IMG/VR virus record: IMGVR_UViG_3300027668_000131
Span: 1-20,921 of that record
Direction: 5' to 3' (one strand)
DNA: 20,921 nucleotides
From: a virus
In this document: positions 3,176 through 6,683 of the stretch, one piece after another
Layout: the number at the start of each line of letters is the position of its first letter
Numbering within the stretch: the first letter of the stretch is position 1
Program-made: the position numbers and the translations under genes
Notes under the pieces: generated by a model
Database searches by the model: none
The model's input: the letters and a program-made list of their open reading frames with translations, nothing else
Told to the model about the DNA's origin: nothing

Positions 3176-4662
3176 TGGCTTGGTACAACAACATACTTAA
3201 AAGTAGAAAATTACAAACAAAAACAATTTATGCCAAACAGCGTTCATACTCAGGGGCTAGTAGAGATCGTTTCTTTACAGACTTTTCATCAACATCCTCA
3301 AGCCCAGACTCTGAAATACAGCCAAATATAAGAATATTAAGAGCAAGAGCCAGAGAGTTGGCTAGAAATGATAGTTATGTTTCAAGATATTTAAACTTGA
3401 TGATTTCAAATGTTGTTGGTAAGTCAGGAATAAGAATAAGTTCTAAAGCCAGAACAGATAGTGGTAACTTAGATATGGATGCCAATCAGCAAATTGAAAA
3501 AGCTTGGAAAGAATGGTGTAAACGTGGCGTTTGTACAGTAGACGGAAGAATGAGTTTTTTGGATTGTCAAAAATTATTCATTGAAACTCTTTATAGAGAT
3601 GGTGAAGTTTTAATACTCCATCGACAAGTAAAAGATGTTAATAAATTTGGTTACGCAATACGTTTTATAGAAGCTGATCGCTTAGACGAAGACTATAACG
3701 ATATAGCAGCAAACGGCAATCAGATAAAGATGGGCGTGGAAGTCGACTCTCACGACAGGCCAATTGCATACTATTTGTTTAAAGATCATCCGTATGACAC
3801 TTTATATTCTCACAAAAGAGAACATGACAGAGTACCTAAAGAAGAATTGATGCACATATTTCTTGCAAATAGACCGGAACAAACAAGAGGAATATCGCCA
3901 ATAGCAACTTCAATGGCTAATATTAAGATGTTAAATGGCTATCTTGAAGCAGAAATAGTCGCTGCACGGGTTGGGTCTTCCAAAATGGGGTTTTTCACCT
4001 CACCCGAAGGAAATTCTTACGTTGGTGATGATACGGCTGAAGATGGCTATGCTCCGGTGATGAACGCTTCTGCCGGAACATTTGAACAGCTTCCTAGTGG
4101 AATGTCGTTTCAATCATTTGATCCCAGTCATCCGTCAACAGCTTTTGAATCATTTACAAAATCAGTTTTAAGATCAATAGCCTCTGGTTTAAACATTTCA
4201 TATCATTCGCTTTCAAATGATCTTACTTCGGTTAATTACTCTAGTATCAGGCAAGGAGCTCTCGAAGACAGAGCCGCTTATCAAATATCTCAGCAATTCA
4301 TGATTGAGCACATGATAGAGCCTATATTTAAACAATGGTTTCTCATGGCTATAGGATCAGAGCTTAAATTGCCACCGGAAAAGTTTGACAAATTCTTTAA
4401 TTCAACAAACTACATAGCAAGAGAGTGGGATTGGATCGACCCACAAAAGGAAATAAACGCAAAAATTGCAGGATTGCAAAATGGAATTACCACTTATTCA
4501 GACATAGCAAGCTCGCAGGGAAGGGATGCTGAAGAGTTAATGGAAATGCACCAGAAAGAGAAACAATTAATGGAACAATACGGAATAAAGTCCGCATATC
4601 AACCATTTGGACAAAAACAACCTGTACCGGCAGAAATTGACGGTTCAAAAGACGAGGAATAA
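3175..4662 (+). CDS. Portal protein (lambda gpB family)
   Basis: The portal is a dodecameric ring at one capsid vertex through which DNA enters and leaves and on which the tail is docked. The 495-residue length is near lambda gpB (533). Recognisable family stretches are RILRARARELARNDSYVSRY followed by a short Val/Gly-rich run (about residues 53-82), then FLDCQKLFIETLYRDGEVLI, RFIEADRLDEDYN, the HIFLANRPEQTRGISP segment that many lambda-type portals show, and the late DLTSVNYSSIRQGALEDR. The C-terminus is charged and probably flexible. The gene starts on the A of the preceding stop (TAATG), so it is probably translationally coupled to the gpW-like gene, and it ends two bases before the protease-capsid gene. 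Confidence 0.95.
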   Translation: MAWYNNILKSRKLQTKTIYAKQRSYSGASRDRFFTDFSSTSSSPDSEIQPNIRILRARARELARNDSYVSRYLNLMISNVVGKSGIRISSKARTDSGNLDMDANQQIEKAWKEWCKRGVCTVDGRMSFLDCQKLFIETLYRDGEVLILHRQVKDVNKFGYAIRFIEADRLDEDYNDIAANGNQIKMGVEVDSHDRPIAYYLFKDHPYDTLYSHKREHDRVPKEELMHIFLANRPEQTRGISPIATSMANIKMLNGYLEAEIVAARVGSSKMGFFTSPEGNSYVGDDTAEDGYAPVMNASAGTFEQLPSGMSFQSFDPSHPSTAFESFTKSVLRSIASGLNISYHSLSNDLTSVNYSSIRQGALEDRAAYQISQQFMIEHMIEPIFKQWFLMAIGSELKLPPEKFDKFFNSTNYIAREWDWIDPQKEINAKIAGLQNGITTYSDIASSQGRDAEELMEMHQKEKQLMEQYGIKSAYQPFGQKQPVPAEIDGSKDEE

Positions 4663-4664
4663 TT

Positions 4665-6683
4665 ATGTCAGAAAATTTAATAACAACTAGCGAGGAAAAT
4701 GAAATGGATGATATTAATATTGAAAACACCATTTCTGAGACTGAGGAAGTTGTAGAAACTGAAGTAGAGGAAGTGAAAGCTGAATCTGAAGAAGTGGAAA
4801 CGACTGAACCAGAGGAAATGGCTGTTGATGTTGATGAGAATGATGAGATGGATAGAGCGTGCTCTGGTGAAATTAATTACAGAACCATTGCTTTAGACAG
4901 ATCATCTTATATAGACGAAGAAAACAGAACTGTAAGAATTGGCGTATCAAGCGAGCAGCCTGTTGAAAGATCGTTTGGTTTAGAAGTCCTAGACCATAAA
5001 AGAGAATCTATAGATATGGAATTTATGGAATCTGGAAGAAGTCCTTTATTACTTGAGCATGACATGTCTCAGGTTATAGGCGTAGTAGAGAGATTTGAAA
5101 TTGATGAGACAGCAAAGAGGACAACTGCTGTAGTACGCTTCGGAAGAAGTGAACTTGCTTCAGAAATTTTTCAAGATATGTTAGACGGAATTCGTCAAAA
5201 CATATCAGTAGGTTACAGAATTAATAAAATGGAACGAGACAGCAATGACATCCTTGGAGATCATTATAGAGCTACTAGCTGGATGCCGATGGAAGTTAGC
5301 AGTGTGGCAATCGGGGCTGACAATTCGGCTGGGGTCGGGGTTGGACGTTCTAAAGAAAAACAAAATAAACAATTCAGGAAAATAAAAATGAGTGAACAAA
5401 ATAACATAGACGAAACGGCTGTAAGAGCTGAAGCGTCTGAAGCTGCTAAAGCAGCGATGCAAAAAGATAATGTAGGAATAGAAGCACTAGGCAAACTACA
5501 TAATCAAAGAGACTTAGCTGACAAAGCAATAAGAACAGGAACTAACCTAGAAAGCTTTAGAGGGGAACTTTTAGAAGCAATCCAGAGCAAACCTTTGGAA
5601 CTAGCACCAGCTACTGTTGGATTAAATGAAAAAGAGCAAAAAAGATATTCATTAATATCTGCTATTAATGCTGCTGGATCAGGCGATTGGTCAAAAGCTG
5701 GATATGAAAGAGAGATTTCAGAAGAAATCGCTAAAAGAACCGGAAGAGAAGCTAGAGGTTTTTATATGCCTTCAGATATCAACTTTGGAACAAGAACTCA
5801 GACTGTTGCCCCGAATGGAGCTGGTGGATTCTTAGTTGGTACAGATCACCTAGCCGACCAATTCATTGGTGCTTTATACGCCAAGCTAACAATTGGAAAT
5901 CTTGGTGCACGAGTTATGACCGGATTGCGTGGTGACGTGGCGATTCCGAAACTGGCTACTTCTGCTACTAATACAGCGTTTGTTGCTGAAGGTGGAGCAC
6001 CGACTGCTTCTGCCACTGTATTTGCTCAAGAAACGCTTACTCCTCGTACATTAGCAAATTTTGTTGATGTTTCAAGAAAACTGACACTTCAAAGTGACCC
6101 AAGTGTAGAAGCTATCTTAAGACAAGACATTATTAATGGTTTTGCTAGAAAAATTGACCAAGTTGCCATAAACGGCGGCGGTACAAATGAACCTAGTGGA
6201 ATTTTACAAAACAGTGATACAACTACTGTTTTAATGGGAACTAATGGAGCGGCTATAACATACGCAAAAATAGTTGAGATGATTAAAGCTGTAGACGTTT
6301 CTAACGCTATGGGCGGTAATCCTTCATTCCTAACTAACCCTAAAGTTATTGCTGCTCTTAGAACTGTTTCTAAGCAAGCTGGCGGTGCTGAAGGTAACTT
6401 CATAATGGAAGCGGTTAGTTCAATATTAGGCTACAACGTAGAAAGCTCTACATTAGTTCCAAGTAATCTTGTCAAAGGTAACTCAGGTGCTACATGTTCT
6501 GCTGCTATATTTGGAGACTTCTCAAACGTCATGCTTGGCTTCTGGTCAGGTGTTGATATTGTCGTTGACACATCTAGCTTATCTACTTCTGGTGGAACTA
6601 GAATTGCAACATTCCAAGATTTAGATGTTGGAATCAGACATGGTGAAGGCTTTGGTGTAATAAAAGATATCGTAGCTTCGTAA
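4665..6683 (+). CDS. Fused prohead protease and major capsid protein (HK97 type)
   Basis: One 672-residue frame carries two functions that HK97 splits into gp4 and gp5. Residues ~10-63 are strongly acidic and may act as a scaffold-like or targeting tail. Residues ~68-227 match the HK97-type prohead protease. The expected catalytic His sits in LLLEHDMSQVIG (H132) and the Ser in NISVGYRI (S181), the usual motifs of this family. Residues ~242-365 are charged and helical, resembling the delta/scaffold region that is cleaved off. Residues ~380-672 are the HK97-fold shell protein (GAGGFLVGTDHLADQFIGAL, AFVAEGGAP, DQVAINGGGTNEPSGIL). The start at 4665 has GAGGAA just upstream. A second in-frame start at 5388 is listed separately. 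Neighbours are the portal upstream and a terminator downstream. Confidence 0.92.
   Translation: MSENLITTSEENEMDDINIENTISETEEVVETEVEEVKAESEEVETTEPEEMAVDVDENDEMDRACSGEINYRTIALDRSSYIDEENRTVRIGVSSEQPVERSFGLEVLDHKRESIDMEFMESGRSPLLLEHDMSQVIGVVERFEIDETAKRTTAVVRFGRSELASEIFQDMLDGIRQNISVGYRINKMERDSNDILGDHYRATSWMPMEVSSVAIGADNSAGVGVGRSKEKQNKQFRKIKMSEQNNIDETAVRAEASEAAKAAMQKDNVGIEALGKLHNQRDLADKAIRTGTNLESFRGELLEAIQSKPLELAPATVGLNEKEQKRYSLISAINAAGSGDWSKAGYEREISEEIAKRTGREARGFYMPSDINFGTRTQTVAPNGAGGFLVGTDHLADQFIGALYAKLTIGNLGARVMTGLRGDVAIPKLATSATNTAFVAEGGAPTASATVFAQETLTPRTLANFVDVSRKLTLQSDPSVEAILRQDIINGFARKIDQVAINGGGTNEPSGILQNSDTTTVLMGTNGAAITYAKIVEMIKAVDVSNAMGGNPSFLTNPKVIAALRTVSKQAGGAEGNFIMEAVSSILGYNVESSTLVPSNLVKGNSGATCSAAIFGDFSNVMLGFWSGVDIVVDTSSLSTSGGTRIATFQDLDVGIRHGEGFGVIKDIVAS
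5388..6683 (+). CDS. Probable nested product: capsid protein alone from an internal start
   Basis: ATG at 5388 is in frame with the fusion gene (its residue 242) and is preceded by AGGAA at 5376-5380 with a seven-base gap, a better-placed ribosome site than many real starts here. It lies exactly at the domain boundary, just after the protease domain and a Lys-rich linker. Initiation there would give a 431-residue scaffold-domain plus capsid protein without the protease. Since a shell needs hundreds of capsid subunits and few proteases, such a product makes sense. Lambda C/Nu3 is an established precedent for a nested in-frame start in this region. Use of this start is inference, not shown by sequence alone. 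Confidence 0.55.
   Translation: MSEQNNIDETAVRAEASEAAKAAMQKDNVGIEALGKLHNQRDLADKAIRTGTNLESFRGELLEAIQSKPLELAPATVGLNEKEQKRYSLISAINAAGSGDWSKAGYEREISEEIAKRTGREARGFYMPSDINFGTRTQTVAPNGAGGFLVGTDHLADQFIGALYAKLTIGNLGARVMTGLRGDVAIPKLATSATNTAFVAEGGAPTASATVFAQETLTPRTLANFVDVSRKLTLQSDPSVEAILRQDIINGFARKIDQVAINGGGTNEPSGILQNSDTTTVLMGTNGAAITYAKIVEMIKAVDVSNAMGGNPSFLTNPKVIAALRTVSKQAGGAEGNFIMEAVSSILGYNVESSTLVPSNLVKGNSGATCSAAIFGDFSNVMLGFWSGVDIVVDTSSLSTSGGTRIATFQDLDVGIRHGEGFGVIKDIVAS

Follow-up and report, generated by a model that had tools for sequence, protein, structure and literature searches.

The stretch of DNA that was analysed, referred to as the window, comes from a virus record and comprises 20,921 bases; its genes follow a head-to-tail order of the usual kind. 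One of these genes codes for a prohead protease of the S78 family, a scaffold (delta) domain and an HK97-type major capsid protein in a single ORF (Table 1). The capsid part passes as HK97-type major capsid protein with both PF05065 (131.8 bits; curated cut-off 24.2) and TIGR01554 (118.8 bits; cut-off 27.5). The protease part passes marginally with the prohead protease S78 profile PF04586 (21.4-24.1 bits; cut-off 21) and stays below the cut-off of TIGR01543 (25.8 bits; cut-off 59). The candidate catalytic residues H132 and S181 are invariant in an alignment of 42 relatives. Protease/capsid fusions are already known (NF045541, NF045540, PHROG 617 and phage MD8; PMC8508860). Indeed, the match to PHROG 617, a family of fused head proteins, spans protease and capsid (E 1e-130; residues 70-669, profile positions 8-624 of 626). 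With NF045541, a model of prohead protease/major capsid protein fusions, the window protein reaches 151.6 bits, as compared to a cut-off of 525, and only the protease half is matched. Judged by these profile scores, it is a fusion related to NF045541 and not a member of that model.

Table 1 Features of the fused gene in the window and loci with additional residues in relatives
Feature	Position	Strand	Basis or remark
SD (Shine-Dalgarno) motif AGGAA of the long product's ATG (4665)	4655..4659	+	sequence; duplex energy -5.9
Gene for the fusion of prohead protease (S78 family), delta (scaffold) domain and HK97-type major capsid protein	4665..6683	+	long product of 672 aa and 72.4 kDa
Match to Peptidase_S78 (protease domain), residues 124-230	5034..5354	+	Pfam profile, 21.4-23.7 bits (cut-off 21)
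Linker between protease and delta, disordered and hypervariable, residues 229-248	5349..5408	+	pLDDT <50; identity ~10%
SD motif AGGAA of the internal start	5376..5380	+	sequence; nucleotide motif conserved in relatives
Internal in-frame ATG, M242	5388..5390	+	M242 conserved to at least 90% among 42 aligned sequences
Nested ORF: scaffold (delta) and capsid, no protease	5388..6683	+	431 aa, 45.1 kDa; short product, production predicted from conservation
Delta/scaffold domain, mainly helices, residues 250-359	5412..5741	+	AlphaFold model
Expected maturation cleavage region, residues ~364-386	5754..5822	+	predicted from the R4C mature chain; model disordered from 375
HK97-fold major capsid domain, residues 387-667	5823..6665	+	PF05065 E 4e-38; TIGR01554
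Loci with extra residues ahead of the protease	L095 927-2000; L096 1311-2000; L102 1389-2000		

In the AlphaFold model of the fused protein (pLDDT 75), a beta-rich protease ends near residue 213-228 and is followed by disorder between residues 229 and 248, by long helices from residue 250, which form the delta domain, and by the capsid domain after residue ~400. M242 sits inside the disordered stretch. The initial annotation had placed an internal start exactly at the domain boundary, and this agrees with the end of the Pfam protease match at residue 230, the disorder around M242 and the delta helices that begin at residue 250. The sequence also confirms the AGGAA and the ATG that it had described within the fusion ORF: the internal ATG is offset by 723 bases, or 241 codons, from the start at 4665 and is thus in frame, and 7 nt separate it from the AGGAA. 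The short product was proposed to be a capsid protein free of protease. The nested ORF does lack the protease; however, it includes the delta domain and does not correspond to the mature capsid protein, since the Pfam capsid match starts at residue 387. For the long product, a second candidate start is present at 4692-4706, where M14 is preceded by GAGGAAAATGAA; therefore, the annotated start at 4665 may not be its sole start.

Within the window alone, the internal site stands out only moderately. The six largest genes contain 100 internal in-frame ATGs, of which two (5388 and 5766) are preceded at SD distance by an AGGA, GGAG or GAGG core. The anti-SD duplex energy at 5388 is unremarkable with -4.3 kcal/mol: 16 of the 100 ATGs, 5388 included, reach this value or a stronger one, and three of the 14 other ATGs of the same gene equal or exceed it. 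A judgement of the site from the window was therefore dropped as evidence, and the case for an internal start rests on conservation. The other ATG with an SD core, at 5766 (M368; GAGGTTTTTATATG), adjoins the expected maturation cleavage region; it falls inside a conserved motif, RGFYMPS, and is probably coincidental.

Conservation of the junction in relatives that keep the fusion

A DNA-level search of a phage collection returned no relatives of the window. The close relatives are 20-odd viral contigs with 67-77% identity, in which an AGGA about 8-11 bases ahead of the ATG is kept while the neighbouring codons have changed. For instance, the window reads TTC AGG AAA ATA AAA ATG, whereas close relatives read TTT AAG GAA/GAT ATT AAA ATG, and the residues encoded over the SD are R-K (AGG AAA) in the window and K-E/D (AAG GAA or AAG GAT) in the relatives. 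Codons have been inserted in L021, which carries AAAGGAAAAGAAATG; L023 carries AAGGAGGT, and AAGGAGGTCGAACCAATG is present in both L023 and L026. In L025 (218-2245) the capsid part extends over two frames, likely due to a frameshift or a sequencing error.

A discovery set of 33 representatives with less than 80% identity was taken from 102 fused relatives. All 33 have an ATG in the linker, which in 30 of them is aligned with M242. The mean SD energy at the linker ATG is -6.8, whereas the 443 other in-frame ATGs have a mean of -2.7 (p 5e-12). An ATG with an SD at dG<=-4 is present in 30/33 linkers and in 94/357 control windows of the same length from the same genes (p 2e-13). Moreover, the GG of the SD core is distributed over the three codon phases (23/4/2), and it is thus the DNA motif and not the peptide that is kept. 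For a second set, bacterial genomes were scanned once with peptide patterns that lie outside the linker, which yielded 74 representatives from many bacterial groups. Here, 70/74 linkers have an ATG with an SD at dG<=-4, as compared to 190/799 control windows (p 4e-35), and the stricter threshold of dG<=-5 leaves 65/74 linkers and 136/799 control windows. Across the two sets, about 24-26% of the control windows have such a pair at dG<=-4. One of the four representatives of the second set that failed at -4, L169, has a GTG behind AGAAGGAGAACCCTGTG (AAGGAG; dG -8.8).

Conservation along the protein is lowest in the linker, with a mean pairwise identity of 10% over both sets (protease 49%, delta 29%, capsid 39%), and within the linker the SD signal is limited to a peak between -16 and -11. 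The linkers are rich in Lys and Glu, which by itself raises their content of SD-like sequences. This composition, which could give AAGGA by chance, is an insufficient explanation because the SD exceeds synonymous-codon nulls that account for it (-6.3 vs. -4.2, p 7e-14). For this test the Met nearest to the M242 column was chosen, and not the strongest one; other Mets show no excess. For many single sequences the synonymous null was not rejected. Taken together, the SD and the ATG are kept among fusion-keeping relatives despite a hypervariable linker, shifts of codon phase and indels, as the initial annotation had anticipated, and these comparisons show that the pair is under strong family-wide selection at the nucleotide level.

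Relatives in which protease and capsid are separate genes at this boundary, for which a search had been suggested, were found. Among other ARRANGEMENTS, Cellulophaga phi39:1 has separate genes for prohead protease and capsid, which overlap as TAATG at this boundary, and Faecalibacterium FP_Epona has two genes with an AGGAGGT ahead of the capsid gene. The internal site may thus have its origin in a two-gene ancestor. That it is now merely an unused relic of two genes that fused is, however, very improbable: a relic is expected to decay, and the SD and ATG have been kept in about 94% of the relatives in a linker with an identity of ~10%.

The surroundings of the internal Met point to initiation as well. 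The residue that follows it is hydrophobic in 2% of the sequences of both sets, as compared to 30% after other Mets, and thus looks like an N-terminal one. Furthermore, the 60-nt RNA segment surrounding the ATG has less structure in the discovery set (MFE -8.0 vs. -15.0, p 6e-13). It could also be envisaged that the SD-like motif acts without initiation, as a programmed translational pause that helps the protease to fold before the capsid part is made, and the motif lies in a disordered linker between two domains, a position that would suit this role. However, a pause needs no start codon, yet an ATG, or a GTG in the case of L169, has been kept at SD spacing, and neither the N-terminal-like second residues nor the low RNA structure at the internal Met is in line with it. 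We regard such a pause as a highly unlikely function of the site.

Maturation, packing and relatives without a clear site

Instead of being translated separately, all capsid subunits could be made as the full fusion and be released by self-cleavage, in which case the internal ATG and SD would be incidental. The protease belongs to that chain, and both protease and delta domain are absent from the mature capsid anyway. The latter can be seen in the relative R4C, whose mature capsid chain (PDB 8gta) begins at ORF residue 362, which is aligned with residue 387 of the window protein; this supports a mature shell without protease and delta. The fused gene of R4C has the internal site (CGGAGGACGCAATG, -9.5). 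As maturation removes the scaffold, judging from R4C, N-terminal peptides at 5388, one of the readouts that had been proposed, are not expected in virions, and the N-terminus of the mature virion protein is uninformative for the internal start.

A few relatives have also retained the fusion but lack a clear SD, which fits with release by self-cleavage alone. The cyanophages S-LBS1 and S-CBS1 have the ATG and no SD, and the SD is weak in Xanthomonas M29, Serratia MQ-4, L135, L161 and L195. Hosts that do not use SDs were ruled out as the reason for the cyanophage exceptions because the annotated genes of S-LBS1 and S-CBS1 mostly have SDs. These exceptions may be due to self-cleavage alone, to SD-independent starts or to something else unseen. 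Loss of the site from a retained fusion, the outcome that the initial annotation had named as speaking against an internal start, is thus restricted to few cases such as S-LBS1 and S-CBS1. Two further peculiarities were observed among the relatives. In the Roseobacter phages CRP-821 and CRP-811 and in cyanophage S-CBS1, ~200-350 extra residues precede the protease in the same ORF (Table 1). A 141-kb record labelled as T4-like Gaprivervirus (L115, PQ671644.1) has an HK97-type fused protease-capsid gene, and either its label or its assembly looks odd.

Packing also speaks against a shell made of full fusions. The R4C shell has 415 copies per T=7 (PMC10276861). According to a rough estimate, which assumes T=7 and an inner radius of 190 A, 415 full fusions, each with 361-364 removable residues, would occupy ~70% of the sphere, as compared to ~23% with the delta domain only. 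Moreover, self-cleavage alone leaves unexplained why an ATG with a well-spaced SD is nearly universal in a hypervariable linker and exceeds the synonymous expectation.

The same device is found in further fusions. In fusions with a ClpP-like protease (NF045540), a junction ATG with an SD at dG<=-5 is present in 18/19 representatives and in 51/234 control windows, a set that carries less weight because its representatives are closer to each other. A junction SD and ATG are also present in distant fusions of Stenotrophomonas S1, a Helicobacter prophage and the record DCP80. The recurrence in ClpP-type fusions is likewise left unexplained by self-cleavage as the only source of capsid subunits, which we consider improbable.

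Two probable nested products from one gene

Translation of two nested products from one gene by means of an independent internal start is the best reading of these data, to which we assign a probability of roughly 0.87. Ribosomes that start at 4665 would make the 672-aa protease-delta-capsid fusion as a minor source of protease. Other ribosomes would initiate independently at 5376/5388 on the same mRNA and produce the 431-aa delta-capsid protein without protease, which would be the main shell subunit. Both chains have the same delta and capsid parts, by which they could co-assemble, and the protease would therefore enter the prohead as a minority subunit. Subsequently, it would remove itself and the delta domains, giving the mature capsid. 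The use of the internal start, the greater abundance of the short product, co-assembly and self-removal are all predictions, as is the high capsid-to-protease ratio. Phages with the fusion probably make mostly shell protein and little protease from one gene, since the same start recurs in about 95% of ~100 very different relatives.

It also appears fairly likely that tailed phages in which a single gene encodes protease and capsid generally use nested starts, an arrangement arrived at with at least two types of protease (S78 and ClpP-like), that most such genomes have an unannotated internal ORF as their real main capsid ORF and that the strengths of the two starts set the dosage of protease per prohead. 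This would explain how fusion phages can avoid carrying a protease on each of the hundreds of subunits in their shell, a question that the annotation of a single ORF leaves unanswered. It further suggests that many phages and prophages have a wrongly annotated N-terminus in their main structural protein, which would affect proteomics, structural work and capsid engineering. Moreover, the protease-to-capsid ratio becomes a testable and tunable quantity that would be controlled by two start sites in a single gene.

In-frame nested starts in phage head genes have a known precedent in lambda C/Nu3, where the protease enters the prohead via the scaffold sequence that it shares with Nu3. When the same measure was applied to lambda as a positive control, gene C had one strong site, at 5342 (AGGAGGGCGAATG, AGGAGG, -10.8), which is the established start of Nu3. 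The lambda record annotates Nu3 at 5132, a position without an SD (5132 and 5342 correspond to 833 and 1043 of L285), and this RefSeq start looks wrong. The parallel to lambda that the initial annotation had drawn holds for the conserved in-frame SD and ATG within the protease gene and for a short product that is the C-terminal part including the scaffold. It does not extend to the arrangement as a whole: the short product of lambda is the scaffold only and the capsid protein comes from a separate gene (E), whereas the short ORF of the window comprises scaffold and capsid. The protease types also differ, being S49/ClpP-like in lambda and S78 in the window.

For fusions like the one in the window, no description of an internal start was found in the open-access literature, most subscription journals lying outside the scope of the search. 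Gene product 5 of Pseudomonas phage MD8 combines protease, scaffold and capsid in one gene, and the passages of that paper covered by a term search contained neither 'internal' nor 'start codon' (PMC8508860). Likewise, PHROG 617, NF045541 and NF045540 are known protease/major capsid protein fusions whose family descriptions mention no internal start. With HK97, the window shares the domain order and the families of gp4 (protease) and gp5 (delta and capsid), and the short product would be the equivalent of gp5 because it includes the scaffold (delta) domain. HK97, however, uses two separate genes, whereas the window has a single ORF with an internal start.
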